Below, piece after piece: positions 4,831-62,764 of a stretch of DNA of 64,000 nt (its first letter is position 1; every line of letters starts with the position of its first letter). The DNA lies in the NCBI GenBank assembly GCA_001247695.2, contig LGRX02035501.1, forward strand, positions 61,776-125,775, written 5' to 3'. The notes under the pieces were generated by a model that was not told the DNA's origin, did not search any database, and was given only the letters and a program-made list of their open reading frames with translations. This stretch comes from Cymbomonas tetramitiformis (lineage: Eukaryota > Chlorophyta > Pyramimonadophyceae > Pyramimonadales > Pyramimonadaceae). Both the position numbers and the translations under genes were made by a program.

Positions 4831-6271
4831 TTGGTAAAATCTCCTGACTACACGACCATGCTTTCTTGGTTGCAGTTTGCGCTGCAGGAACTTCGTAAGT
4901 TATGCGATTACTGTAGCGAGGAGCTGCGCGACGCATATCAGGTCCGATCCTTGATATCACTTCGCGAATTATCACAGCCGCTCATTCCTCTAAGTTTCGT
5001 GTATACCATCAGAGCTCTCGGTACCTGCGGCAAACTCTTATACAATGTTTGGGGTGATTTGCACGGATTTCCCTTTGAACAACCTGTTTCCCAAGGTTGA
5101 GATATCCGTGAAGCCTCGTGTTTTTCGCAGAATATCAAGATTTCGAAGCTCACTTCTGCGGAAACTCGTCCAACAGCGGTACATACCTCACCGAACAGCC
5201 CTCTCACCCCTGCACTTGCCCCACCCCTAACGATGATACCTTCCTTGCGTTTTCCACGTTGTTTCGTAGACTACAAGCATTGCATGGTGACAAATAAATT
5301 GTGACATCTGCACTTACCGAACTTGAACTCCACGCATATCAGCGCTGGATGCTGTCAGAACTCATGTTTTGTTGGCGTTCTCGTGCAGCTAACTGCAGGA
5401 GCAATGTATTTTCTGGGTGTGGAACTCGAGACGTCAAAACCCTATGAGGGCAAGAGCACAGACTCCCAGGTCAGAACCCTGTGGAACCCTGGGCGTGCTG
5501 CGCCTTTGATACTGTGCTTGTGCGCGCGTGCTTCACAGCGGGGAAGCTGGAAATACAGCAGACCAACGTACACCTCCCCTTTGAATGTGCTTCGTGCTCC
5601 CGTGCCAATATCTTCGGGTGTGCTTTCGCCAAACCCGGATCAGCATAGATTTACGATGCACTCGTTCCATTTGTAGCTGCTATGTCGCACGTTCTTCGGC
5701 CTTCTGTCCGCAAGATTTTGCACTGCGAGGCTGAAGGGTGGTTACTCCCAAGTGACCTGCCGGCGATGTTGTGGTCAACAGGTTCTTGTAGTTTTTGCGA
5801 ACAGCGATGGCACGTATAACGGAATGTCGGTTGAGCGTTCTCCATTTCTGTCCCGTTGAGGATACCCCTTCACCGCAAGTGCTGCCGCGTATGTTGCGAA
5901 CAGTGGTTCAATACTTATGGCAGGATTTTTGTCAAGAAATATGCTTTCAAGCTCTCCACGTCTACTTTGTGCGCTTGATCAACCTCTGTATCACTGAAGA
6001 GAAGCAGCTATTGCTCGTTATGCAGAGAAGAAAAGGTGCGGATCCAGTTTTAAGAAGCCATCTGGATGAAGGTCTGAGGCGTTTCTGCCTTCTGCACTTG
6101 AAGAGGGCGATGCTGGTGTTGCGTGGTCAAATGCTAAATCTGCATACGCACCCGGAATTCTCAATGTATTGTAAAGTTATACCTCTGTATTTTTCTGCTC
6201 AAATGGTGGTTGAGGATATTGATCCCTGCTCACTTCGTGCCTGCCTTGTTGCGGCAAGGCTCCTTAATTGA
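4831..6271 (+). pseudogene. Unrecognised intron-bearing or decaying gene
   Basis: Several stretches read well as protein on the plus strand but not in one frame. Block 1 (4831-5095) ends in the middle of a codon. A 35-nt GT-AG segment (5096-5130) then restores phase into block 2 (5131-5294), a Cys-containing frame closed by a TAA at 5295. Further coding-like stretches at 5310-5820 include CxxC pairs (CASC, CSFC) but are cut by TGA and TAG codons. A 158-codon frame at 5795-6271 is rich in Leu and Arg and ends the region. Either this is a gene with several very short introns or a pseudogene. No family is recognised, and exon boundaries beyond the first intron are ambiguous because two frames compete at 5400-5650. 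Confidence 0.35.
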
Positions 6272-15566: not shown

Positions 15567-16485
15567 GTGAATTACTTTTTACTTCTGCTTCAAACAGTGT
15601 TCTCCCTCCCAGCTGTAGGGCCAAGCTTTTTTCCCACTCGCCTTTGCCCTGCTCTCCAAAGCGCAAGGGACTTGACCGGTCGGACCTCTGACTCTTCCAG
15701 CTCCAGATACCTTTCTAGCGCCCTAATGGCGGGGCGCAGGCGAGCACCTGGCTGCTGGGCCTTAAAGGCTTTCCTAACTCTGGGGGGTAAACGCTGAGCC
15801 CTGAACTTCCAGTGCCCGCGAACTCTCGCAACGTCCGACCCCTGGTTCTCCAAGTGCTGTAGGTAGACTGCCCGTGGCTCAACGTGTGGCTTGACCGGTT
15901 TTTATCCCGGGTGTCCGCACCGGTGATCCAACAGAGCAGCTCCCACGGCTCCTCGGGACGCGGAACCGAGGCGGTCGCTGGGGTTCTGGCGGACTTCCAG
16001 AAGTTCGCCTGCTCTCTCTGGATGCGTTGCTCGACCTGTTCCCGCTCAGGAGGCTCTGGGCTTCCCGTGCGGGTGGCGGCTAGCATGTCCAAATCTCCCT
16101 GTTCACACTCCCTGACCTGACTCTGGTTCCTGAGGTGGCGCCTAGCGCTGCTACTAAGGTGTCTCCCGCACCTTCTCCACCTATCACGCAGCACCTGCAT
16201 CGCTGTGGACGCCGGCGCGGGGCCCTTCTGTCCCCCTGACCCCGCTGTGACGGGGCCCGCGCCCTTTACTGCGGGGAGGGCGCCCCGGGCTGGGGAGCGT
16301 CCTCCTGGACAAAATCCAATCCAATGGCAGCCAAAGCTTCTTCTACCATTGAATCGTCCCCTATTAACGCCAGGGTGTCCTCCAGGAGGCACTTTGCCCA
16401 CTCTTTTGGGCGCAGCTTTGCCTGCGGACAGTCGCGGGCGTAAACGCGTAATGGCCCATGCTCTTGCACAGACGGCAACCCTCGT

Positions 16486-16755
16486 TGTTAGGGATCGCGA
16501 GCAGTCATCAGATGTTGGTGCGTCATCGAAGCTGCCGAATCGCGATCCGTAATTATATCAGAAACTGAATGAGTACCACTGAATGCGGGTCGATGTCATC
16601 ATCAACCCGCGTAGCTCAGTTGGTAGAGCGACTGTGATTCAATCAGGAGGTCATGGGTTCGAGTCCCGTCGCGGATACCATTTTCGCCGCGATGGATTAC
16701 GCTCGACCCATCTCAAACAGTGAAAAATCCCATCACTATTTATAGAGCCCTAAGA
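16486..16755 (+). repeat. 5' LTR of the TRIM element
   Basis: Begins tgttaggg and ends ccctaaga, which form a short imperfect inverted pair. It holds the tRNA-like sequence at 16605-16680 and is identical to 17084-17353. Confidence 0.93.
16605..16680 (+). tRNA. tRNA-like sequence in the 5' LTR, cloverleaf with encoded CCA
   Basis: It is exactly 76 nt with standard tRNA numbering. The acceptor strands ACCCGCG and CGCGGAT pair at six of seven positions (2-71 is C-A). Other parts are a D arm GCTC-AGTTGGTA-GAGC, variable loop AGGTC, T arm ATGGG-TTCGAGT-CCCGT, discriminator A and an encoded CCA. A box tagctcagttgg (16612-16623) and B box ggttcgagtcc (16656-16666) are intact. TTTT follows at 16681-16684, a minimal Pol III terminator. 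The anticodon arm is degenerate: ACTGT/TCAGG pairs only at its three central positions, and the loop GATTCAA has A rather than U at 33. Positions 34-36 read TTC. It is therefore probably a transcribed tRNA-like element rather than a decoding tRNA. Confidence 0.8.
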
Positions 16756-16756
16756 T

Positions 16757-16773
16757 TGGTATTCTCGTAACGG
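16757..16773 (+). other. Primer-binding site of the TRIM
   Basis: TGGTATTCTCGTAACGG begins one base after the LTR. The leading TGG is complementary to a tRNA CCA end. The first ten bases equal those after the chromovirus 5' LTR at 39148, implying the same primer tRNA. Confidence 0.7.
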
Positions 16774-16810
16774 CTCGCAGATTCGGTGTCAGATGTAACG
16801 GCATAAGGCA

Positions 16811-16990
16811 CATGATGTGACCTACGCTAAGATCGCGTATGCTCGGGCACGGTGATGTGACCTGCGCTACGATCGCGTATGCATGGGCACGATGTGACCC
16901 GCGCTGATGACGTGGATTCGGGCTGCATCCCAAGAACTGCGATGCACCTTCGGTGCGATGGGCTGCATCCCAAGAACTGCAATTCGGCTC
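16811..16990. repeat. Short direct repeats in the TRIM core
   Basis: gatgtgacct-cgct-agatcgcgtatgc recurs about every 44 bp, two and a half times. gggctgcatcccaagaactg then occurs twice (16920 and 16962). No frame crosses the core. Confidence 0.75.
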
Positions 16991-17070
16991 ATAGTAAGCT
17001 GCCACGTCATCACATCGACCGAACTGTGATACGAACTGGAACACGAATCGTCAGGTGACGATCTGATTTC

Positions 17071-17083
17071 AAGTGGGGAGATA
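17071..17083 (+). other. Polypurine tract of the TRIM
   Basis: aagtggggagata lies directly before the 3' LTR. It shares ggggagat with the chromovirus tract at 46769-46777. In reverse transcription this purine tract primes plus-strand synthesis. Confidence 0.7.
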
Positions 17084-17353
17084 TGTTAGGGATCGCGAGC
17101 AGTCATCAGATGTTGGTGCGTCATCGAAGCTGCCGAATCGCGATCCGTAATTATATCAGAAACTGAATGAGTACCACTGAATGCGGGTCGATGTCATCAT
17201 CAACCCGCGTAGCTCAGTTGGTAGAGCGACTGTGATTCAATCAGGAGGTCATGGGTTCGAGTCCCGTCGCGGATACCATTTTCGCCGCGATGGATTACGC
17301 TCGACCCATCTCAAACAGTGAAAAATCCCATCACTATTTATAGAGCCCTAAGA
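17084..17353 (+). repeat. 3' LTR of the TRIM element
   Basis: Identical to 16486-16755, as far as I can compare by eye, and followed directly by the target duplication ctcgt. Confidence 0.93.
17203..17278 (+). tRNA. tRNA-like sequence in the 3' LTR
   Basis: The second copy of the 76-nt cloverleaf, 598 bp downstream of the first. A box at 17210-17221, B box at 17254-17264, TTTT at 17279-17282. It shows the same degenerate anticodon arm, as expected if both LTRs were copied from one template at insertion. Confidence 0.8.
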
Positions 17354-19381
17354 CTCGTACTCCGGGGACCCGAGTCGCTGCCCTGTGGGTGTCGGAGTGC
17401 CAGCGGATGTCGCCATGGCCAGCAACTCCTCTGTGACATCTACGTGGGCTAGCAGCTGGATCGAGCGGCTCGCCTTATCCTGGCTCTGCCGTAACTCCCG
17501 CTCAGCTTCTATGGCCCAAGTCAGGAGTTTGTGGCGGTCTTTGCTGGCCGTCCTGCTCAGAGTCAGGACCGAAGAGCCTTGCCTCTCGGCTATAAGGAAA
17601 ACTCTCCTCCTTACCTCTGGTATTAGTCCAGTAAAGAATATGTCCAACAGCTCCTCCTCTGGCACCGGAGTGGTGAGCTCGTGGGCAGCCAGCATGCTTA
17701 CGATGTCGTGAGCGAGGTGCACTCCATCCCAGAACTCGCGGACCGTGCGAGACTGTCTGTCCTGACTCTGACGCACGCGACGCAGGAACGGACCAATCGA
17801 CGTCATCTCCCCTTTGTCGGGCATTACCAGCTGCGCTAAGGGGACCACTCGTCACGTCCAGGGTGAGGCTCTCACCGTCCCGGGCTTCCTTCAACACCGA
17901 AGAAAGCTCGCGGTACTCGGAGCTCAGTGCGCCGAAGCAGTGTCTGGCCACTTCCGACAGCAGGGAGTGGTCTGACAACACCGGCTCCTCACTCCCGCCC
18001 TCCAGCGTGCCCAGACGCGCCATCTCCATGGCGTAGCGCACTGGCTCCAACTCCCGAACCTCCCTGACCTGCCGGACAAACCGAAGGAGCCGACCAAAGA
18101 CGTGGGACGACCCCTCCACCTCCGTGTGGTATTTGTCCACCGCCTTTTCCATGGCTTTGAGGGCTTCCTTAAGGGCATGCTGCTCGTCTTACGACTTGCA
18201 GAGCGTCGGGACTCCCGGATGTAACGAGAGGAATCGGTACGGAAGGTGAACTGGCTGTCGCCATCCCCGTCCTCACCCGGCCCATCGCCGCCAGGACCTC
18301 CGCCCGGACCCCCCGGACCTCCTGGCCCTCCAGGATCATCACCCCCCGAGCCTCCGGGTCCTCCATGACTGCCGACACCGGGCTCCTCCGGGGACTCGTT
18401 TGGCTCCGAGTGCTCAGGTTGAGGGACCATCCCCCCCCCGTCTCCTGGTGTGTCCGTCGCAGCAGCAAGCGGAGGCGGTGACACTACCGGAAAGTTGTCG
18501 AAAGCGCCGGGCCACACGTCCGCGGAGCAAAACCCACACACCGGCAGGTACACAGTCTTCAGGAGTGCCACTACACTTCTCTTAGTGCCCACCTGACATG
18601 TCCACATCTGCACCGGACTCTCCGCGTGCCCGCACCCGCAACGAGCGCAGTTCTCTGTGACGGGCGCTAAGGCCGCCGTGAGACTGTAAACCACCTGGGA
18701 CCCGAGGACTCTGTCATTGTCCGAGACTCTCGCTTTCAGGCACTGCCTGATCTGACTGGTAGGATGCACGCACCCAGCGACCTGACCAAGGGAGCGATAC
18801 CTACGGGCGGCGTCGTAAAACAGGCGCTGGGCGTCGGACCCCGGTTTGCCATGCTCGACCACGTGTGCCCGGAGGGCGGCGCAGACTTTCACTGGAAGGG
18901 AAATGTAGTCCCATGAGTGCGGCGGAAGCGACGCCACGCCCGCGTGTGACTCCTCCGGCGGGCTATGAACGCCCCGGTCCTCGACGTCACAGGTGACGAC
19001 GGAAGCCGGCTCCACCAGCTCATGTCCCTCTCGGGAGATGGGCGTCTCCTGAACCGGACTCGACACTGCCGCTGCAGGCCCTCGAGCGTCTGACTCCACG
19101 GGCCCCGAGGGCGAAGCCTGAACCAGGGCGAGCCTTTGGACTTGTGACTCTATGACCGCCTGCAGCCTCTCCTCTAACTGGGCCTCAGCCGACCTCCGAT
19201 CTGCTGCTCGCCGCTCGTCAGCAGCTATCTGCTGAGCGACGCTCTCGTCGACAGCCAACTGCCTTGCAGTCTCCCGGGCTTCTGAAAGCGCCTCACGCCA
19301 CGCGCGGCAACTAGCACCCGCTTTCAGAAATTCACTACTTGTGTGCGAGCACAAGCAGTTACACCGGCCGAAGCGCGGCAA

Positions 19382-24229: not shown

Positions 24230-24538
24230 GTGCTCAGCCATGGACGTGCTTATGAGTTAGATTTCGGGGATCTCGATATTCGTATCCATCCGGTGCAGCC
24301 TGTATCCAGAATAGAGTTGTATAACGACTCGATTCAAGCACCTTTGCCTCTGCCACAAATGATCACCGAAGAAGGGCAACCACTGTTTGAGATATCACAC
24401 ATACTCTCAGATAAGATCACTAGAGGTGTCAAGTACTATTTAGTGCGATATGCAGGCTACGGCCCTGAGCATGACACCTGGGTCAAAGCCACAGAGCTGA
24501 CCAATGCAGCAGACATGATAGTTGCCTATGAAGGCTGA
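24230..24538 (+). pseudogene. Integrase C-terminus with chromodomain (fragment)
   Basis: 102 codons equal to the last part of the pol frame at 45410-45721. The chromodomain (FEISHILSDK ... YYLVRYAGYG ... DTWVKATEL) keeps its aromatic residues. In chromoviruses this domain reads histone marks and steers integration. Catalytic parts are missing. Confidence 0.85.
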
Positions 24539-25558: not shown

Positions 25559-26173
25559 TGTCAGGGTTATGACCGATGACATATATGTCATACATGTCAT
25601 ACGTGTCATACCTGTCAGACATGTCATACCATGTCATGTCATGTCATGCCATGTCATGTCATGTCATGTCATGTCATGTCATGTCATGTCATGTCATGTC
25701 ATGTCGTGTCATGTCATATATTATAATGACAGACAGTCGTCAGTACGGTCGACTATGACGGACATGTACAATCATACCATCTGTCATTCACTCACCTTGA
25801 GTGACACTTGTCATCGAGAGGCCAGGTTGTGGCATCGAGATGACAAAGCAAGATGAAGTCTTGAAGAACCGAAAGTGTTCGGAGAAAACTCATCTTCGCT
25901 TCTAGCATGTTCTGAACAAGCATGCGAGTATCATGTGGCTTATTCGTTCAGCCGATACTGATTGTTCAACCAATGCCTTGGGTTCACAACCCAATTGTGG
26001 TGGCATCTATGAGATGCGGGGCATTGCGTAAATGAGGTAGCATTGAGCTATAGCAGTCACTTCTGAAGAAGCACTGCACTCATACCCACACAGACGCTGC
26101 GTGAGCTATTAACGTTCCATAATAGTCTCGCTATATATCATATATCCTATCGCTTCCTAGCGAAGCCCTAAGA
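25559..26173 (+). repeat. Chromovirus LTR
   Basis: Starts tgtcagggttatgaccgatg right after the tract gaggggagatc, and ends gccctaaga. It contains a (tcatg)n microsatellite at about 25628-25712. 615 bp against 576 and 601 bp in the larger element; at least part of the difference comes from the microsatellite. Confidence 0.88.
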
Positions 26174-38570: not shown

Positions 38571-39146
38571 TGTCAGGGTTATGACCGATGACATATGTGT
38601 CATACATGTCATACCTGTCAGACATGTCATACCTGTCAGACATGTCATATCATGTCATGTCATGTCATGTCATGTCATGTCGTGCCATGTCATATATTAT
38701 AATGACAGACAGTCGTCAGTACGGTCGACTATGACATGTACAGTCATACCATTTGTCATTCACTCACCTTGAGTGACACCTGTCATCGAGAGGCCAGGTT
38801 GTGGCATCGAGATGACAAAGCAAGATGAAGTCTTGAAGAACCGAAAGTGTTCGGAGAAAACTCATCTTCGCTTCTAGCATGTTCTGAACAAGCATGCGAG
38901 TATCATATGGCTTATTCGTTCAGCCGATACTGATTGTTCAACCAATGCCTTGGGTTCACAACCCAATTGTGGTGGCATCTATGAGATGCGGGGCATTGCG
39001 TAAAATGAGGTAGCGTTGAGCTACAGCAGTCACTTCTGAAGAAGCACTGCACTCATATCCACACAGACTCTGCGTGAGCTATTAACGTTCCATAATAGCC
39101 TCGCTATATATCATATATCATATCGCTTCCAAGCGAACCCTTAAGA
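38571..39146 (+). repeat. 5' LTR of the chromovirus
   Basis: 576 bp. Contains paired motifs catacatgtcatacctgtcag and a (tcatg)n run at 38646-38692, shorter than in the 3' LTR. Ends aaga at 39146. Confidence 0.9.
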
Positions 39147-39147
39147 G

Positions 39148-39164
39148 TGGTATTCTCCGACTCG
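39148..39164 (+). other. Primer-binding site of the chromovirus
   Basis: TGGTATTCTCCGACTCG starts one base after the LTR. The first ten bases equal the TRIM site at 16757. Confidence 0.7.
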
Positions 39165-42100
39165 TCAAGGCGACGAACTGAGGACGCATAAAGTGTGAGT
39201 GCAGTGAGTAGAGATATCGAATTTTGTGTGCGCAGGTTGCGGATCGCATATTTCAAACAGGCGTCGCAGTCGCACATATATCAACACATTTCGCATAATA
39301 TCTACCGCTGCGGAATAAACAGCGAAATCAGTGCGCGAGGAGACATCGTCGCAATCGCATTTGTTCACATACACGCCGTCAAAGATAACAGCGCGAGAAG
39401 GTGTGCATACAGCATGCCGATCGCACATATGCGCTGACATCATTCGCAAAATTGTTCGAGATTCGACAAACTGACGCGCAGATGCACAATTTGTCATCAG
39501 TGTATGCTTCGTATACAAAATGGCATTCGTATCACATGCCGTACATCTCTGCGACGAGATACCATCACTATTCACAGCGCGCACATCAGCGATTCATCAA
39601 AGTCGCAATAGATCGCAGTTTGCAGTTTTTGATGCGCATACTGATCTCGTCATCGAAAAATCATTATTTCAAATGGTCGCAAAAATCACTTGTTGACGTG
39701 CGCATGATTATTTTGCTTGACAGTATATGTATACACCTGCTAGACGCATCATAACAGATGACGCGCGATGATGGTATACATAAATGCAGCATGTTACAAT
39801 ATCTGTGATTATCGCACATAAACGATGATGCTCATTCACTATCAAATTCACATACAAGCTTGCAATCGTGAGTGTATACTATATGCTGTGTAAGTAGCTA
39901 CACACACACACACACACTCAGTATGACAACAGATGAAGTGGATGCTATGCAATCATATACGTGTCTACAGCAAATATCATAGTGTGCAGCAAAATCATAT
40001 GAGTGTGCAGTAATTATAATACTTGCAGCACTACACACACACACTTGCAGTATATACTAATCATTCAGTATATACCAAGTGCATGCACCATTCATTACTA
40101 TATTGTGCAGTGATATCATGCCGTTTGACTTCACTTTGTATACATTGACATGTTCATACATTTATGCATTCAGCTTGATCACAATGGCAGCTGTCATGCA
40201 TAAACCAGCTTGACCACGATAGCAGCTGGTATATATGTTCTCATATAACAATGCATCAGACATTGCACATAAGCATACCTGCTGTGCATGTAAACTATAT
40301 TTGAACCCATATGGTGTAAGGTGCCTCTTCAGTGGTCTCAACACAATAATTAGCTCAGTATATCCTGACGCAGGATTTGGGATGGATATACTGTTCTATT
40401 GTGGATCACTGAAAGGAATGCTCACCGGAACCATGTGTAAAATATACCCAAGCAACTCATCACTGCAGATGAGATATGCAAGATTACAATTACTAACCGA
40501 GCTGATATACATCATGTTAGATATACTCTGTGAGTGGTATGCAGATCATCCAATGTGAATAATCAACTTGGTATAGTGCAATAAATCAGCAATTACCTAT
40601 ATACAAGTGTGTGTAGTAGCATAAATCACACACACACACACACACACATACACAGTGTACTCAATCAGAAAGTACCGTACACAAGTCATTGCATACACAA
40701 GTCACTGCAACTTATGTATTAATATCATAAAGTATAATGACATTGCACTGATTCACAAGTGTAATAATCAAGTCACTGACACTACTATGTAAGTTGACAA
40801 CACACTGACTCGAAAGTGTAGTGGTCAAATATCATATTAACTCATAATACATAGTACCATCCAGCTAACACATGTGCGAGCTGGATGTCAAGTGATGGCG
40901 ATACATAAGGGAACAGGATAAGAAACCATGCTGAAGGGCTGGATGGAGAATATCGCTCCAGACCCGAAGGCATTATACAATGCTCAAATAAGCAGCTGGT
41001 CACTGCTGAGCATTGTCCATTCGTCTCACATATCAGCTGGAGCAACTACAACAAGTACATTGCATTATGATAGTTGATTCAAAATTGATCAGCTCAATTT
41101 GCATGTAACATACAGATCAGTTTTCATATGATTTCTGACAATAGTATAAAGGACATTCACACACACATAAATGTGTTGTGTGAAGTTGCTGTGATTGTAT
41201 CCAGCAAAGTCCAGATTTGTTCCAAATGAGATATATCACTTTGATAAATCTTAAGAGCACAGACCTATGCTCAAACAAATCATAGGTTGAGAAATATCAC
41301 TAAAGTGGGTGTTTCCACTTAAGTTGATTAATATATACATAAACCAGAAAAGTACATTTGCTGTGCATGGGTTTAAATCAGTAAAACCCAGAATGCTGTC
41401 AACTATAAATGTTGATATACAGCACAACTCACTTATTTGCTATGAAAAAATATCATATGCAAAAGTGAAGTTCCTTGTAATGATTCTGTACTTACATTTC
41501 ACATTTACACTGAAATATGTCACCACAGCAATATTTCAGACAGCTGAAAAAAGCTATAAAATGGGTGAAAAAGCTCCACGTTTAATTTCAAAATGAAAAA
41601 TGTGTGCCCATTTTATGTAAGATTATGATTTTATACCTATTAAGGTATCAGAAAATCATAATGACACATGTCATATCAGTGTGACACCCTAAAATATTAG
41701 GTGTTGAATATATATGGGTAACGCTATTGCTATGGCAATAAATCGCTCAAAATGCTGTACGTAAAACACATTTTGAAAATTTCGGATTGATTTTTTTTGA
41801 TAAAATGAATGTTTATATATCAAATATCAATCCCTGATTTATGCAGCATGTGTAACGCCCTGTAACAACCCTAAAATTAAATGTGTGTAACAGGGGTGTA
41901 ACGTACCTCCTAAAAAACACTTTACGTTTATGTGGGTATTAAATGCAGTTTTGCTTAAAAATCTTTGCAAAAACGTTATACTGCTTATTTTTTACCTGTA
42001 TTAGGGTTACTGATATCAAGTAACACCCTAAAAACTGTATTGAGTAACAGGGCCACTGTAACTATATATGCCCAAAATGCCAGTTTTATTTCGAAGAACT

Positions 42101-42462
42101 TCGTTTTTTGGCATTATTATATCATGCTAAATCATCATAGACATGATAATACTATGGGCAACAACCCTAAAACTGTAGGGCAACAACCCAAAAACTGCAG
42201 GGCTACAACCCAAGGACTGTAGGGCTGCAACCCTAAAACTGTAACAGCTGATTCCTATAAGGAATGCATGCTGAATGAGGTATTGGCAATTGACAACTGC
42301 CACTGTATCACACACTTCCTTGAGGGGGGAAGAAGGTGGATATATGTACATGCATAACCTCATCATAATATACAGATATACCATATATAACATAGGTATA
42401 TATATATCTTCACACACTCAGTTAGCTGAAGAGATTTTGGTGTTGTGTTTTGTCTTTATTAG
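39165..42462 (+). other. 3.3-kb AT-rich leader of the chromovirus
   Basis: No convincing frame and no recognisable nested element. There are CA runs at 39900-39917, 40024-40040 and 40627-40650. Many gtgtgcag and acacac words and a taacaccct/taacgccctgtaac family fill 41690-42070. A leader this long is unusual for a gypsy element and may hold an insertion that I could not delimit. Confidence 0.45.
42153..42243. repeat. 22-bp tandem repeat, four copies
   Basis: gggcaacaaccctaaaactgt and close variants in direct repeat, just before gag. Confidence 0.85.
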
Positions 42463-43446
42463 ATGGCAGAAGCAGAAGATCCAGATATTCCACCCATCAA
42501 TGCAGATCCGTCTACATGGTTCTTTGACATCTTAGGCTCATATGATGCATACAGTCGTTTCAAGATCCCGAAATGGCACGCTGGTTATGATAATACCCAG
42601 ACCAGATTCGACAAGATAGGGTTTTTCGACAATATCAGCCGAATGAAGCCTGATATGAGCAGATATCGAGATCCTGAAAACGAGCCTCAGGAACCAGATG
42701 AAGAATATACTGCAGACAATCCTCCAATGATTTTCACAGATCCAGATACAGCACCAGCACCATCTCCATCCAGTTTGGTTCCCAAAGTGAAAATGGCACC
42801 ACCAAACCAGTACAAATCAGGAATGGACGCAGAGGTTTGGTTGGAAACCGTGGATAGATACTTCCAATTCACGTATCCAGGAGTTCCAGATAAAGACCTG
42901 ATCACAGTTTTCCTGACCCTCATACAGAATAATGATCGACACTATTTCCAGGTCGTGGCAAATCAACCAGATGCCACATTTGCAGGAATCAGAGAGATTT
43001 TCCTCAGACAGTTTGGTAACCCCCATAAAAGATCAGTGGCTAAAAAACACCTAATGTCACTGAAACAGGAAAACCAGACTTTTTCAGATTATCTACGCAC
43101 ATTCACTTCACTGGCTGCACTGGCAGCAGTTGAACTGGAAGATGTGTTGATAAAGGACAGATTCGTCAACAGCGTAGATCCGGAACTTCGCAGACAGTTT
43201 CATTTACGATTCCTGACAGAGACAGAAAGGAATAATATGTCGTGGTCACTAACCACACAGATATTGCTCGACTTGAACTATGTCGTTCATTCGAAGCAAT
43301 CAGAGACTCTTCATTATCGAGGGCAGAAGGAACAGTCATCTGGAGGGCCAGCCAAAAAGGATCAGGATCAGAGCAGTCATGGCAATTCAGCCTCCAGTGT
43401 CTTATGGTCCTACCGTTGGAAAGCAGCCTCTACGCCGTATGGCTAA
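42463..43446 (+). CDS. Chromovirus Gag
   Basis: 327 codons. Residues 1-105 form an acidic leader with a Pro-rich stretch. Residues 115-255 carry the Ty3 Gag helical domain: AEVWLETVDRYF, then FLRQFGNPHKRSVAKKHLMS and FSDYLRTFTSLAALAAVE. Gag assembles the particle that packages the element RNA. The usual CCHC knuckle is missing: after about residue 310 the sequence runs into the deletion joint with pol, and a stop follows at 43444. The downstream pol frame overlaps it in another phase. Confidence 0.8.
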   Translation: MAEAEDPDIPPINADPSTWFFDILGSYDAYSRFKIPKWHAGYDNTQTRFDKIGFFDNISRMKPDMSRYRDPENEPQEPDEEYTADNPPMIFTDPDTAPAPSPSSLVPKVKMAPPNQYKSGMDAEVWLETVDRYFQFTYPGVPDKDLITVFLTLIQNNDRHYFQVVANQPDATFAGIREIFLRQFGNPHKRSVAKKHLMSLKQENQTFSDYLRTFTSLAALAAVELEDVLIKDRFVNSVDPELRRQFHLRFLTETERNNMSWSLTTQILLDLNYVVHSKQSETLHYRGQKEQSSGGPAKKDQDQSSHGNSASSVLWSYRWKAASTPYG

Positions 43447-45721
43447 AGATGGCAAGTCATCCCTTCGGTCATTCTTGGGCATGGTTGGTCAATTTAGGAG
43501 ATTCATACCAAAGTTCTCCAAAGTTGCCGAACCTCTCAATCGTCTCCTTAAAGATAATGCAGAGTTTGTCTGGGAAACTGAGCAGCAGCAGGCATTTGAT
43601 AACCTCAAAAGTGCCATCTGTAACGCTCCAGTATTACAGCTTCCAGATCAGAAACTGCCATCTATTTTGGAGGTCGATGGATCAGGCACACACGTTGGCC
43701 AAGTATTACTCCAGGATCAAGGAAAAGGTATGAAGCCATGTGGCTATCACAGCGTCACTCTATCCGATACACAGAGACGTTGGCCTATTCCTGAGATCGA
43801 GCTATTTGCCATTGTGGAAGGCTTCCGATTCTTTCGCCACATCTTGTTGGGAGCTCCTGAGACTATTGTACGCTCAGATCATCAGCCACTGGTTTATTTC
43901 CAGACCAAATCCACACTGAGCCCCAAACAGGCACGGTGGTTGGATGAGCTCTCTGAGTACAACTTCCGTATAGAGCACATTGCTGGCGAGAAGAATAAGG
44001 TTGCAGACGCACTCACGCGTATCTCTACACTTTTTGAACTTACTGATTGTCTTCAACACATGGACATCAGTGAAGTCATTCCATCCGCAGATCCTACATT
44101 CATTGCTCTTATATCTTCTTCATCAGCTCATCAGCTACACGACATCATTATATCCGAATATGATCGTGACACATTTGCACAGACTATTTTGGCTAAGCTG
44201 ACATCATCGACTTCATCACAGTCAGTCAGCAGCTACAGCTTCGAGCTCATTCAGGGGTTGATCTATCGTAAGACCATATATGGCAGACAGCTGTACATTC
44301 CACCAACAGCTAAAGTCCCCACAGATGACGGTGAGATCACACAACTTCGCCACATTCTTCTTCATGAGTGCCACTCAGCCACTATTTCTGGTCATGTAGG
44401 CAAAAATCGCATGCTTCATCTTCTGCGTAGCCGGTATTATTGGCCAGGAATGACAACGGCAGCTATCAAGTACATTCGGGAGTGCCCCGTTTGTCAGCGC
44501 CAGAAAACGAGGCGACACAAGCCTTATGGTCAGGCACACATACGATATTCCGTGCCTAAGACAAAATGGCTTGATGTATCTCTTGATTGGATCACTGATC
44601 TGCCTATCACCACTAATGGGCACGACAGTATATTTGTGGTAATGTGCCAATTCTCTCATCGTTGTCATCTCATTCCCTTCAGCATGACCTGGACAGCTCA
44701 GCATACTGCTTCGATATATATGCAGCATATCTTCAAGCTCCATGGTCTTCCGAGGAACATCATCTCAGATCGAGACACCAGATTCACCTCTACATTCTGG
44801 CAAACACTGTGGAAATCTACTGGTACGAGATTGTCCATGACATCGTCACACCATCCACAGTCGAATGCTGCCAATGAGAGAAGCCATGCCTTCATTGAGG
44901 ACATCCTCAGGTAAATTTCAGATTGTTGATTCATGATTTGATTTCACCATCCTCTGGTTTACAAACTGATTAGTAGCATTTTCATTTTCAGGTGTTGTTG
45001 CAATGATACTTCAGCCAATTCGTGGGAGGACAAGTTGCCTCTGGTGGAGTTTGCAATTAACAATACCGTTTCTGCATCAACTGGTTATTCACCATTTTAT
45101 CTCGACTCGATGGCGCAACCACTCTCGCCTCATGATCTGGTTATTACTATTCCGCCAGAAGCTCCTGTTCCAATACAAGAAGCTATTCGAGATCATTTTG
45201 ACCAGTACTCGGCTGTTCATGCCAACGCGGTAGACAACATTTTCCGAGCAGCAGAAATTAGCCAGGCCAGATTCAATAAGACTCACATGCCTAAGCAGTT
45301 CGCAATCGGGCAGAAAGTTCTTTTACGGACCGAGTTTATTCAATGGATTGGTTTGACAGAGGCAGGCAGACACTTTAAGCAGCCATATATTGGGCCGTTC
45401 ACTATTTCCAAAGTGCTTAGCCATGGACGTGCATACGAGTTAGATTTCGGAAATCTTGATATCCGTATTCATCCGGTACAGCCTGTTTCCAGATTAGAGC
45501 TGTACAATGACTCGATTCAAGCACCTTTGCCTCTGCCACAGATGATCACCGAAGAAGGGCAACCACTATTTGAGATATCACATATACTCTCGGATAAGTT
45601 CACTAGAGGTGTCAAATACTATTTAGTACGATATGCAGGCTACGGTCCTGAGCATGACACCTGGGTCAAAGCCACAGAGCTGACCAATGCAGCAGACATT
45701 ATAGCTGCCTATGAAGGCTAA
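43400..45721 (+). pseudogene. Chromovirus Pol: RT end, RNase H, integrase, chromodomain
   Basis: The frame enters at the end of reverse transcriptase (LRSFLGMVGQFRRFIPKFSK), so the YxDD core and protease are gone. RNase H follows (VDGSGTHVGQVL ... ADALTR). The integrase zinc domain HECH...H...CPVCQRQK lies at 44362-44510. The integrase core has D in SLDWITDLP, D in ISDRDTRF and E in NAANERSH. At 44911-44991 an 81-bp GT-AG segment with in-frame stops interrupts the frame; removing it joins EDILR to the WEDKLPLVEFAINN segment. The C-terminus has the GPF/Y-like FKQPYIGPF and a chromodomain (about 45560-45715) with YYLVRYAGYG and DTWVKA. Apart from the deleted front, domains look intact. Confidence 0.85.
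44911..44991 (+). other. Putative intron in integrase
   Basis: Begins gtaaat and ends cattttcattttcag, with a pyrimidine-rich acceptor. Its removal restores the integrase reading. It is 81 bp, a multiple of three, but carries an in-frame TAA at its start. Confidence 0.65.
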
Positions 45722-46765
45722 ACATTATATTAAGCCTTATGCCCTTACTTCTTGTAATATATACTAATACATGTCGATCATCTATACAACCTTGCTCTTA
45801 ATGTTTATCATTATGTTGCATTGAAGCGGGAATTGATCCTTCCTTGCTAAAGGTGTAGTGAGCCTTGTTCAAAATCATACCCTTGCACAGATACGCACAC
45901 ATGCGAGATATCATATCTGTGGATAAATAAAAACTGCTAAATGCTACCTTTGCCAAAACCGTGGTTTGTCATCGGATTCTTGGCCAGTCATCCGAAGCTA
46001 CCGGAGATAATGACTGAGGTAGAAGGAGTTGTGATCCTAAGTTGTGCTTGACAAACATGACTAAATAAATTTCACATTAGTACGTGGCGAATTCATTCTC
46101 ACTCATCGCGATAGATGTTCGTCAAAGCGTGCGTACTGGACAAAAATATTGAGGAGTTGAGCAGACCGGTTAAGGATTATAAGTCCAATTCCGTTAAGCA
46201 GGGCCGCTCCGTTTGCATTAAAACAAGCCCCTTTGTTCGTTTATTATCGAAATCGGGCTCCCCATTACCGCCTAGGATCCTCCAAAGTAGCTTAAGGAGG
46301 GGAGGAAGAGTTGGGTGCACTATATCAGGCCGAGAATCGTTCGAATATAATTCGTTATAATCGTGGGATCATCGATCGCGCAAAGGCGACGACGGCTAGC
46401 GCAAATAATCCGTAACGTAGACTTCGGATGCTTTGAATCGTCTAGCACATACATGATAACGTGTGGATCAATCAGTAATCCAGCGTAGGATTGTATCGCG
46501 AAAACGCTCTTCATTGAACCTTGGAACGTCACTCAACGATACGATTTCCGGAAAGGTGGGCTGCATCCTAAGGACTGTATGGCTAAATGCCTAAGGTGAG
46601 GGACTAAAGTGGACTCAGTTCCCCCCAATAACCTAAAAACACCATGAGGGACGCCTCAAATCGGTGTAAGAAGACTGGTACCAGCAAGAAGCGACAACAA
46701 CAAAGACATCAAAGACATCAAAGACATATACAAAGGTATGCCCGTTGTGAGGTCACAACTCTCTT
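45722..46765. other. 3' non-coding region of the chromovirus
   Basis: About 1 kb between the pol stop and the polypurine tract, conserved in the truncated copy at 24539-25545. No frame. It may hold regulatory or packaging signals. Confidence 0.5.
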
Positions 46766-46778
46766 GAGAGGGGAGATC
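46766..46778 (+). other. Polypurine tract of the chromovirus
   Basis: gagaggggagatc lies directly before the 3' LTR and is repeated before the LTR at 25559. Confidence 0.75.
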
Positions 46779-47379
46779 TGTCAGGGTTATGACCGATGAC
46801 ATATGTGTCATACATGTCATACCTGTCAGACATGTCATACCTGTCAGACATGTCATATCATATCATGTCATGTCATGTCATGTCATGTCATGTCATGTCA
46901 TGTCATGTCATGTCGTGCCATGTCATATATTATAATGACAGACAGTCGTCAGTACGGTCGACTATGACATGTACAGTCATACCATTTGTCATTCACTCAC
47001 CTTGAGTGACACCTGTCATCGAGAGGCCAGGTTGTGGCATCGAGATGACAAAGCAAGATGAAGTCTTGAAGAACCGAAAGTGTTCGGAGAAAACTCATCT
47101 TCGCTTCTAGCATGTTCTGAACAAGCATGCGAGTATCATATGGCTTATTCGTTCAGCCGATACTGATTGTTCAACCAATGCCTTGGGTTCACAACCCAAT
47201 TGTGGTGGCATCTATGAGATGCGGGGCATTGCGTAAAATGAGGTAGCGTTGAGCTACAGCAGTCACTTCTGAAGAAGCACTGCACTCATATCCACACAGA
47301 CGCTGCGTGAGCTATTAACGTTCCATAATAGCCTCGCTATATATCATATATCATATCGCTTCCAAGCGAACCCTTAAGA
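46779..47379 (+). repeat. 3' LTR of the chromovirus
   Basis: 601 bp, nearly identical to the 5' LTR except for a longer (tcatg)n run at about 46860-46918. Confidence 0.9.
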
Positions 47380-58900: not shown

Positions 58901-59129
58901 CAATATTAGAAATCACTATGATGAGAAATGTTAGAAGTCATTGCAAGTTATCAGAAGTTATCACAATGCATCATCACATGAATACTTTTACTTTGCCCTA
59001 ATGATACGCATATTATTGCAGTTGCAGGAGTTGGGGCACTAGCAGTTGCCGGGTGGCGGGTGCTCAAATTCAAAGGTGGCTCAAATTCTGCAACTCCTCT
59101 ATGGAGACGCCCGAGGCCCTACCCAAGTC

Positions 59130-59520
59130 CGAGGTATTCAATGGCTGGGTCTGCTGGAGTTGCTGGAGCTTGCTGGAGCTGTTGGAGCTGCTGGAGCTGC
59201 TGGAGTTGCTGGAGCTGTCGGGCCTGTGGTTGCTGAAGGAGCATGGGCTGGGACTGCTGCATTTGCAAAGTCTGGGGAGCTTGCAGCAGAAGGGGTTGCA
59301 GCTGCTGGGTCTGCTGGAGCTGCTGGAGCTGCTGCAACTGCTGGAGCTGCTGGAGCTGTTGCAACTGCTGGGGCTGCTGGAGCTGCTGGAGCTGTTGCAA
59401 CTGCTGGGGCTGCTGGAGCTGCTGGAGCTGTTGCAACTGCTGGGGCTGCTGGAGCTGCTGGAGCTGCTGGAGCTGCTGGAGCTGCTGGAGCTGTTGCAAC
59501 TGCTGCGTCTGGGGTTGTTG
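59130..59520. repeat. Leu-Gln-Gln coding repeat
   Basis: ctgctggag/ctgttgcaa 9-bp units in 36-39-bp blocks. On the minus strand they encode LQQ triplets, and all frames on both strands are open, so the other frames are artefacts. Confidence 0.9.
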
Positions 59521-60136
59521 GAGCAAGAAGGGCTGGGGTTGCAGCGGTTGGAAGGCTTGCTGCAACAACGGAGGCTGGGACGCTTCCTGTCCTACTTGGA
59601 GCATCGGCACCGCCTGAGGCACCGCCTGAGGTTGCTGCTGAGGGCTTTGCTGCTGGGGGGGGAGGGTAGGTGGTGCCTCCGCTGTCGGCGCGCTGGGCGC
59701 ATCTTCCCCTGGGCTTGCCATGAAGTCCGCCACTTGGCGCTCCAAGGCCCGCTGCTGGCGTTCCTCAGCCAGCTTCAGCTGCTGGGTGAAGTGCGCCTCC
59801 TGCTGCTTCAGCATCTTCTGGCTCGCCTCCTCCTGCCTCGCTAACACCGCCGTTAGCTCCTCCACCGTGATTCCCCTCACCGATGGGGCCGCCTCGGTAA
59901 CCTCCGACAGAGCGACAAGCGGTTGAGGGGGGGCCACCGTGCGGGCTGACGACGCCGGCGCCGCGCCCCTCGTTGACGCACGCCCCATGCTTCCGCTGCC
60001 AGCAGAGGATCTGCTCCTTTTTTGACCCTTTGCTGAAGTTTGCGGGCCACCGCCACCCGAGCTCAAGCCCCTACCAACCTTACCCGCCGGCTGCTGCCGT
60101 ATCCGCGGGAGGCTCAACCTCTTCGGCGGGTTTCCC

Positions 60137-60178
60137 TGGGAGTTGGCTCCCGCGAGTTGGCTCCCGCGAGTTGGCTCC
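60137..60178. repeat. 14-bp repeat, three copies, inside coding sequence
   Basis: gagttggctcccgc is repeated three times, and because 14 is not a multiple of three it shifts the frame between the DDYVFVDML exon and the Gln-rich part. Confidence 0.85.
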
Positions 60179-61039
60179 TCAACTTCTTCCTCGGTGGGGT
60201 GCCGGCGGTATCCACGTCCTCGCCCTCGTCCTCCGCCGGGACGGCAATCGCCGACGCACCACCCTGCGGCTCTGCATTCGCACCCCCTCCCCACCGAGCA
60301 AGCATGTCCACGAAGACGTAGTCATCTTGCGTGTACTTCGGCGAGGGGAAGATGTCACCCTGAAGATCCTTTGCCGTCAATTGCCTCACGATCGGAGGCA
60401 AAGAGACACCTGTGAAGAGCCCACAATCGGACGTCGAGCTTGTCAAAAAGAAATTGGGGGCTACCACTTAGACAAAAGCAATTTCACCGCAAGCATGCTC
60501 AGCACCCCCCGCAAGAGTACCGATTCACACAAACAAAGAGAATACCGTACCGTTCTCCAAGCCGTAGTGCTTGTGCAGGTTGATGAGCTTCGGGAAGAAG
60601 ATTCTCGCGCACTCGTACACAATGTCCGACCCCTCTTCAGTCTTGAAGTGGGCGGCACCACGGGCCTTATCCGTGCTCCCCTGGTTGAGCCGGTTCATCC
60701 GGAAGATGTGCGTAAGGTGCGGGGTGGCGTTTCTGCCGTGGATAGGCCCACCGCATATGGTGAACCACCCACGGTCTTTCACGTGCAAGATCGTCCCCGC
60801 AATATACGCGCCCTTGTATACTTGCCCTTGGTGATACACGACGGATCCCCTCTCGAAACGCCCCTTGGACTTTTCCGTGTACCCCTCCTTCCCATGCACC
60901 CCATCCCCCGCCACGTACACCACCGGTGCTAACCGCGGCAGATCACGGTGATGCACCCAACGGGGATAAAAAGCAACACGTTGCTCCAACGTGGCCTTCG
61001 CCCACCCCGGCCAATCCGCGGCAGCGGGCGCCTCCACGA

Positions 61040-61540
61040 CCACCTCCGCCGGTGCGGGCTCTCCCGCCGCGGGGCTCCCCGTGATTGGGGGCGGAGCGAC
61101 TACCACCTCCGCCGGTGCGGGCTCTCCCTCCGCGGGACCCTTTGCGATTGCGGCATCCTCCACGACCACCTCCGCAGGTGCGGGCTCTCCCGCCGCGGGG
61201 CTCCCCGTGATTGGGGGCGGAGCCAACACCACCTCCGCCGGTGCGGGCTTTCCCGCCGCGGGACCCTTTGCGATTGCGGCATCCTCCACGACCACCTCCG
61301 CAGGTGCGGGCTCTCCCGCCGCGGGGCTCCCCGTGATTGGGGGCGGAGCCAACACCACCTCCGCCGGTGCGGGCTTTCCCGCCGCGGGACCCTTTGCGAT
61401 TGTGGCATCCTCCACGACCACCTCCGCAGGTGCGGGCTCTCCCGCCGCGGGGCTCCCCGTGATTGGGGGCGGAGCCAACACCACCTCCGCCGGTGCGGGC
61501 TCTCCCGCCGCGGGAACCTCCGTGCTCGTGGGGGCGGGAG
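61040..61540. repeat. 126-bp coding repeat, four copies
   Basis: gtgattgggggcgga recurs at 61081, 61207, 61333 and 61459. Each unit encodes 42 residues (GEPAPAEVV, ITGSPAAG, IAKGPA motifs), so length changes keep the frame. Confidence 0.93.
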
Positions 61541-62764
61541 CGTCCGCGGGTTGCTCCGCTCCCGACGGCGCTTCCACATCCCCCTCACCAACCTCGGGGC
61601 GTTTGGCCGCTTCAAGGGGCGGTGGCCACGGCAAACTCTGCTGGGACGCGCCTGCCAGCAGCAGGGCGCCCGCTTGCGAGGTTGGGTAGACCGTGCGCTT
61701 CGCCATGCACTCCGGTCTACCACAGTTGTTCGGCTCTTCAAAGCCTTTGGCTAGAAGGCACAGGTTGTGGTAGCTCGCACCGCAGTGCGAGCACTTGTGC
61801 ACTCCACGTCCATCGTCTTGCTCGCAGATGAAGCAGCAGACTTCAGGTGCTGGCGGTGGGGGTGATGGCGGAGGAGGCACGTCGCGCCCACCTAATTCAT
61901 ACCACACCAAAACCATGCGCGTTTACACAAGCAGGGTTTCGGGCATTATCCATACGCATGACTATAGGTTCTACCAACATGTGATTCGAAAAGGTGCTCA
62001 CCATCTTCTTGCCCTGTATAGCATCTATCGTATGCTATTGTCAGGGCATGATCGAAAGCATTCCAATCTAATGCTTTCCTCACCGCGGTCTTCGGACCTG
62101 GCAGCTCCCCCAGTCGTTTCGTCGCCTCCGTGTCGTGCATGTTCACGACAGGGGGCTCCGATCTTCCTCCGCCAGGCTCCTCCACGCATTCCTCGCGACC
62201 GCAGTTGAACAAATCTCTCTTTAGGCCTCTTGCTTGCCTCTTGACACTTAGGGTGGTAGCGAATCCCGCACACCTTGCATCGCGTAACGAAAGCCCCCTT
62301 TTTACAATAGCAGCACCTATCTTCTGGCAGTACCTCTTTGCATTCACCACACTGCACCGCCGGATACTTTTTATTCGCACAGCTAAAGTGAAAGCTCCTA
62401 TTGCAAACCCTACAAGTCTGCGCTGGAATTAGTTTACTGTCGCATCCAACGACATGGCAGCGGTGGTATTCAGGGGCGTTTCGGGACACTCTCGACCCAC
62501 GGGTTCTGGCGGGCGCGTTGTTTCCGCCTCGGTTTCTTGAGGTCATTGCAGTTTCCGAAGTGCTAGCTCTAAGAAATGTTCTTCAAGAATGGCTTCCGCT
62601 CGCTTGCACCAACTGGGGCGCTGAGACGTTGTACCCGTGCTCATAACACGTACTGTCCCATTTTACGCCTGCGCAATGTTACTACTAACACGTAGTGTCC
62701 CATTTTACAGCTGCGCAATGATCCATCGCTGCAGTATCTGTCGCTGCAGTAACTGTGCATGCAT

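Follow-up and report, generated by a model that had tools for sequence, protein, structure and literature searches.

TRIMs with tRNA-like sequences in their LTRs have been described as Helenus ('TRIMp3'), and the main text of that description lists fungi, animals and, as the sole plant, Selaginella (Kojima, 2024; PMC10886601). According to the same text, more than 100 families occur in rust fungi alone; conservation of the A and B boxes, false tRNA calls and helpers that share the primer-binding site (PBS) belong to the class, and Pol III transcription of Helenus is stated to be unproven (PMC10886601).

The element analyzed here was first pointed out in an earlier note, made from the DNA letters alone, which held that it would be a second, independent case, beside Cassandra, of an LTR element that captured a Pol III gene. 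It is not such a case, given that Helenus is already in print (Kojima, 2024; PMC10886601). What the element does, with no claim to be the first in print, is to extend Helenus-type elements to a green alga. Our search of openly accessible papers found no later or algal report on Helenus or TRIMp3.

Structure, copies and a second subfamily

The window, i.e., the whole stretch of 64,000 nucleotides of Cymbomonas tetramitiformis DNA that was analyzed, contains an 868-bp TRIM that is a green-algal member of Helenus (Table 1). The anatomy and coordinates given in the earlier note (identical LTRs, CTCGT duplication, PBS, PPT and no genes) proved exact, and it was correct in reading the element as a miniature LTR retrotransposon whose LTRs each hold a Pol III unit of the tRNA type; the A and B boxes, CCA and TTTT are all present. 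No helper gene was found inside 16486-17353, where the only ORFs of at least 50 aa lying wholly within the element are 102, 59, and 51 aa long. TTTT occurs in the element only in its two LTR copies; this internal shortage is not significant as a Pol III signature (P = 0.81 by shuffling).

Table 1. Positions in the window of the TRIM, its parts and the chromovirus family.
Feature	Position	Strand	Basis
Left target site duplication CTCGT	16481-16485	.	direct reading
TRIM, whole element, 868 bp	16486-17353	+	
5' LTR, 270 bp, TGTTAGGG...CCCTAAGA	16486-16755	+	270/270 bases identical to 3' LTR
tRNA-like unit with A box, B box, CCA (5' LTR)	16605-16680	+	RF00005 47.7 bits; ARAGORN
Rival hairpin: T arm and acceptor 3' strand paired with downstream LTR (predicted)	16653-16711	+	MFE -29.0 kcal/mol; shared pairs kept
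TTTT, possible weak Pol III stop (5' LTR)	16681-16684	+	directly after CCA
Internal region, 328 bp, without helper gene	16756-17083	+	parts 86-93% identical to L027 stretch behind chromovirus-type LTR
PBS TGGTATTCTCG	16757-16767	+	10-nt core common with chromovirus 39148-39157
PPT AAGTGGGGAGATA	17071-17083	+	adjoins 3' LTR
3' LTR, 270 bp	17084-17353	+	270/270 bases identical to 5' LTR
tRNA-like unit (3' LTR)	17203-17278	+	RF00005 47.7 bits; ARAGORN
Rival hairpin, 3' LTR copy (predicted)	17251-17309	+	letters identical to 16653-16711
TTTT behind tRNA-like unit of 3' LTR	17279-17282	+	directly after CCA
Right target site duplication CTCGT	17354-17358	.	direct reading
Second LTR of chromovirus family	25559-26173	+	PPT before; chromodomain-end match 24234-24536
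Ty3/gypsy chromovirus, probable mobilising family, 8.8 kb	38571-47379	+	domain matches, LTRs, PBS, PPT
Chromovirus LTRs	38571-39146 and 46779-47379	+	575/576 aligned columns agree, gaps left out
Chromovirus PBS	39148-39157	+	core TGGTATTCTC as in the TRIM
Chromovirus gag	42463-43446	+	domain match
Chromovirus RNase H and integrase	43280-44914	+	domain matches; one integrase domain just under curated score
Chromovirus chromodomain	45035-45721	+	domain match
Chromovirus PPT	46766-46778	+	similar to TRIM PPT

The genome searched comprises 851.7 Mb in 25,745 contigs; the published assembly of the species is given as 914.3 Mb with 15.3% LTR elements (PMC10675990). Among 2475 candidates, 40 copies were scored, the window copy included, and these were 99-100% identical over the whole or nearly the whole element. 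Many copies with distinct 5-bp duplications exist, as had been expected: a perfect duplication was present in 25 of the 39 loci with two recognizable LTR starts, and since two of these share one site, they represent 24 sites with 24 different duplications. The remaining 14 loci show no such duplication; they include tandem or rearranged copies, one unparsed end and one same-site pair. Every copy read contains the tRNA-like unit. A B box with the LTR end plus TTGGTATY 55-85 nt behind it was found at 382 genome places and the reversed-pattern control at none, with B-box LTR ends that continue differently at just 1 + 1 places. Match lengths of 105-112 bp among the 382 places suggest more than two subfamilies. 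A scan of viral contigs for the conserved LTR motif returned one phage contig, which we judged from its sequence to be a chance match.

A second, diverged subfamily is represented by the element at locus L046, where a related LTR (5028-5319) is accompanied by its own PBS, TTGGTATCGAAGC, and a PPT; another copy lies in L014. For this LTR, 40 of 847 candidates were scored. The interior of the L046 element is about 1 kb long, compared to about 290 bp implied by tandem arrays. Such arrays of tRNA-bearing TRIMs were recognized from the regular spacing of coordinates, with a period of 581-582 bp on contigs C4522, C12738, and C21084, where some of the 847 candidates lie, and of 557 bp on C4521.

Four copies have 6-10 nt of PBS directly behind the 3' LTR, beyond which the sequence is unrelated or belongs to the chromovirus (L027 1368-1380; L042 from 1404; L043, minus strand, near 507; L033 from 1370), and in L033 the reverse complement of a PBS comes after. 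Such fragments might stem from cDNA ends that ran on into the primer, or from mixed tandem junctions. Elsewhere in the window, both strands of 59053-61916 contain long frames of low complexity, with Gln/Leu runs and repeated PAPAEVV units, that match hypothetical Cymbomonas proteins. One of the ORFs there, 60525-61916 on the minus strand, had seven protein matches, six of them named Cymbomonas tetramitiformis.

Probable helper and candidate primer

The window also contains a Ty3/gypsy chromovirus, which probably mobilises the TRIM. LTRs of its type occur three times in the window, two of them bounding the copy at 38571-47379; the flanks of this copy, TGTGT and TGTGC, are the same in four of their five bases. 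One of its two LTRs is 25 bp longer than the other, the difference lying in a TGTCA-rich repeat. No match to an RT domain was obtained in this copy, and Rfam gave no tRNA match in the chromovirus LTRs of the window. The TRIM and the chromovirus share the PBS core, GGGGAGAT ahead of the LTR and the LTR start TGTYAGGG. The border from PPT to LTR reads GGGGAGATA-TGTTAGGG in the TRIM and GGGGAGATC-TGTCAGGG in the chromovirus, and the LTRs end in CCCTAAGA and CCCTTAAGA, respectively. Behind the PBS core, the two sequences differ.

In L027, a chromovirus-type LTR is followed by the 18-nt PBS region of the TRIM and a related interior (86% identity over 74 nt and 93% over 134 nt), and in L058, gag, protease, RT, RNase H, integrase, and chromodomain lie near an LTR of 73% identity. 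Genome-wide, the chromovirus LTR yielded 1892 candidates, with the 40 scored at 98-100%, and 7 of 12 LTR pairs on the same contig were spaced by 9.6-10.2 kb. These observations fit a recently active family able to supply enzymes, and we infer from the sequence similarities that the TRIM may use them. A chromovirus with matching PBS, PPT and LTR ends bears on the open question of what mobilises Helenus.

The chromovirus also bears on the primer. The earlier note had suggested that the tRNA-like unit could mimic a primer, and a reading in which the unit provides its own primer for reverse transcription draws on the encoded CCA and on the pairing of the unit's 3' end with its own PBS in the main subfamily (9 of 11 positions plus one G-U). 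That same PBS core is found in the chromovirus, whose LTRs have no tRNA match; it is better matched by 34 other genome places; and the second subfamily has a different PBS, no CCA and, by eye, no complementarity of the unit to its own PBS. Nor did Kojima (2024; PMC10886601) observe complementarity of this kind in other Helenus. Since the chromovirus shares the PBS core in the absence of an LTR tRNA match and the unit fits its own PBS less well, self-priming is very improbable, and the suggestion of primer mimicry finds no support.

A host tRNA is the likely candidate primer. Exact genome patterns recovered no whole host tRNA gene that fits the PBS of either subfamily, and a strict T-arm pattern joined to GAGAATA, for the main subfamily, matched no place in the genome. 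A looser T arm with GAGAATA matched 34 places, clustered on few contigs, compared to 1 for the control; for the second subfamily, a T arm with TTCGATA matched 12 places, compared to 0 for the control.

The tRNA-like unit and its proposed transcription

The two units are the only Rfam matches in the whole window above the gathering score, which is 29 for the tRNA model RF00005 that they match. The Rfam model and ARAGORN both detect a unit in each LTR. Among 24 scanned loci, there were 13 Rfam matches, all to tRNA and all within LTRs of the two subfamilies. The unit of the second subfamily scored 58.4 bits, above the 47.7 bits of the window unit; it has no CCA and no TTTT behind it, and it may resemble plant tRNA-Ile (AAU).

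The tRNA-like unit is not a sound tRNA. The Rfam alignment of the window unit contains mismatches in the acceptor and anticodon stems, and its cloverleaf has a folding energy within the range of shuffled sequence (z = -0.55), 57 of 200 shuffles being equally good. ARAGORN calls the unit SeC (tca) and the Rfam alignment, as read here, has UUC at the anticodon, a disagreement that leaves no isotype credible. Copies of the element give false tRNA-Sec and tRNA-Ser calls, which would inflate tRNA gene counts for this genome. The encoded CCA is present in the window LTRs as described before, but it is not fixed, being replaced by TCA in 5 of 81 LTRs and, at the end of the unit in the diverged subfamily, by GAGCACTTT. 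The suggestion, made on the strength of the CCA, that the unit was captured from a mature tRNA bearing CCA is weakened because the diverged subfamily has neither CCA nor, by eye, complementarity to its own PBS.

The two subfamilies agree at all 12 positions of the A box and at 9 of 11 positions of the B box. In the same comparison, which covers two subfamilies only and a second LTR that is 4 nt short, identity was 57/73 for the whole unit, 92/119 for the LTR upstream, 52/75 for the LTR downstream, and 11/19 for the anticodon arm, which has decayed. The usual B-box consensus, GGTTCRANNCC, allows both B-box changes. The comparison of the boxes with the rest of the LTR, named in the earlier note as a possible refutation, had a mixed outcome: 12/12 and 9/11 identities in the A and B boxes, 57/73 in the whole unit and 92/119 upstream, and in young copies a unit at least as variable as the rest. 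The 81 young LTRs gave no sign of extra conservation within the unit (20 variants in 76 sites vs. 32 in 194 elsewhere); a unit as variable as the rest is what a young burst would be expected to give and is uninformative on older selection.

The explanation that we consider probable as a whole is that of a non-autonomous LTR retrotransposon of the Helenus kind, transcribed by Pol III, mobilised by the chromovirus and forming a hairpin in its read-through RNA. We infer Pol III transcription from the sequence of the element. Recruited through the two boxes of the 5' LTR, Pol III would often pass the short TTTT of that LTR and stop at the TTTT of the 3' LTR; the resulting RNA would be just under 700 nt long and have a repeat of 80-90 nt at each end. 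A repeat at both RNA ends is needed for LTR reverse transcription. Cassandra RNA is described likewise, with a repeat at both ends, in the main text of Kojima (2024; PMC10886601). The RNA would then be packaged, a host tRNA with a 3' end matching TGGTATTC would prime reverse transcription, and chromovirus proteins would carry out integration.

A simple Pol III scheme is contradicted by the T runs inside the L046 element, which contains eight TTTT starts, all internal, including a run of six T. This copy could hardly give a full-length Pol III RNA. Such T runs, impassable for Pol III, speak for a reading in which these elements are transcribed by Pol II as in an ordinary TRIM and the unit is a passenger, derived from a SINE or tRNA insertion and spread by a recent burst. 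The unit's freedom from constraint among young copies and the decay of the anticodon arm to 11/19 identities point the same way. Against this stand the unchanged A box (12/12) and the agreement of both B-box changes with GGTTCRANNCC while the flanks diverge, the better tRNA score kept in the second subfamily (58.4 bits), and the 382 B-box LTR ends; we regard Pol II transcription with a passenger unit as unlikely.

A predicted rival hairpin and comparison with known systems

In RNA reading from the unit to the LTR end, the minimum free energy (MFE) fold is a long hairpin rather than a cloverleaf, at -45.4 kcal/mol compared to -32.2 kcal/mol when the acceptor is enforced; the corresponding values for the second subfamily are -39.6 and -30.1 kcal/mol. 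Folding thus predicts that the hairpin outcompetes the cloverleaf in RNA reading past the unit. For the hairpin segments of 59-60 nt (MFE of -29.0 kcal/mol in the window), none of 1000 shuffles folded as well in either subfamily (z = -4.59 and -4.92).

The subfamilies share 18 hairpin pairs in a structural alignment set by hand from the two predicted folds, because MAFFT failed to align the 3' arm of the hairpin; the count omits two further predicted pairs per fold. Eleven of these pairs are unchanged, three changed on one side, four changed on both sides and none is broken. The chance of keeping all 18 is P = 0.026 if all changes are transitions and P = 0.0005 if two thirds are, and that of keeping all 18 with at least four double changes, all transitions, is P = 0.0025; the region was picked after its fold had been seen, so these are not the P values of a blind test. 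Among young copies, the hairpin is broken by 3 of 8 departing cells and the cloverleaf by 11 of 15.

We propose from the folds of the two subfamilies that the hairpin may keep read-through genomic RNA from being handled as tRNA. In such RNA, the 3' half of the unit would pair with the LTR sequence that follows instead of completing the cloverleaf, and the hairpin would prevent tRNA-style trimming of the 5' end of the genomic RNA, with RNA ending at TTTT limited to the tRNA-like fold. As the hairpin is possible only past the TTTT, it would serve as a mark of read-through RNA and conceal the tRNA features of that RNA.

The same pattern would arise if the hairpin had no role and were a trace left when part of the tRNA 3' half was copied in inverted orientation, its arms then staying matched through snap-back correction at reverse transcription. 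The downstream arm looks like an antisense tRNA 3' half, a process that corrects palindromes would yield the pattern observed, two subfamilies only are compared, and with transitions throughout the P values are 0.026 for the 18 pairs and 0.0025 with at least four double changes. The failure of any of 1000 shuffles to fold equally well in either subfamily and the constant position of the hairpin speak against a mere trace, which we view as a possible reading of somewhat doubtful standing. More tentative still, and in our judgment improbable, is the stronger form of the proposed hairpin function, in which the LTR would encode an RNA switch: RNA ending at TTTT would adopt the tRNA-like fold only, and longer RNA would refold the T arm and acceptor strand into a hairpin of 18-20 bp. 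If true, the switch would set full-length genomic RNA apart from a decoy or short tRNA-like product and shield the 5' end of the genomic RNA from tRNA processing. The proposed switch can be likened to the R-region hairpins of retroviruses, which treat the two R copies differently.

Several known systems share parts of this organization. tRNA-derived SINEs have the same tRNA-type internal promoter; the element described here differs from them in its paired LTRs, PBS, PPT, and 5-bp duplications. Retrozymes, the TRIM-like elements of plants whose LTRs contain hammerhead ribozymes, are likewise described as small non-autonomous LTR elements with a functional RNA in the LTR; in contrast, no ribozyme family had an Rfam match up to an E value of 1 in 16400-17450. 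Cassandra has a Pol III-type gene in each TRIM LTR (PMC10886601; PMC7215508), as well as tandem arrays and a predicted self-complementary RNA of LTR regions (PMC7215508). The gene is 5S rRNA in Cassandra and tRNA here, and no 5S match above the Rfam gathering score was found in the window.

The closest likeness is with Helenus as set out in the main text of Kojima (2024; PMC10886601). Both are TRIMs shorter than 1000 bp that have a PBS, a PPT and LTRs each containing a tRNA-like sequence; both have 5-bp target site duplications, as in fungal and plant Helenus (here perfect in 25 of 39 loci); both give ARAGORN or tRNAscan hits that do not correspond to genuine tRNAs; and both have several families per genome and a helper that shares the PBS region and not the LTR body. 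The conserved A and B boxes of Helenus can be compared with the 12/12 and 9/11 identities of the boxes between the two subfamilies here. The elements described here differ in the CCA encoded by the main subfamily and in the predicted rival hairpin, and the words 'hairpin' and 'CCA' are absent from that main text by text search (PMC10886601). They further differ in their host, a green alga, and in their probable helper, a chromodomain Ty3/gypsy element with 5-bp duplications, whereas the same text links fungal Helenus to Copia and animal Helenus to Gypsy with 4-bp duplications (PMC10886601).
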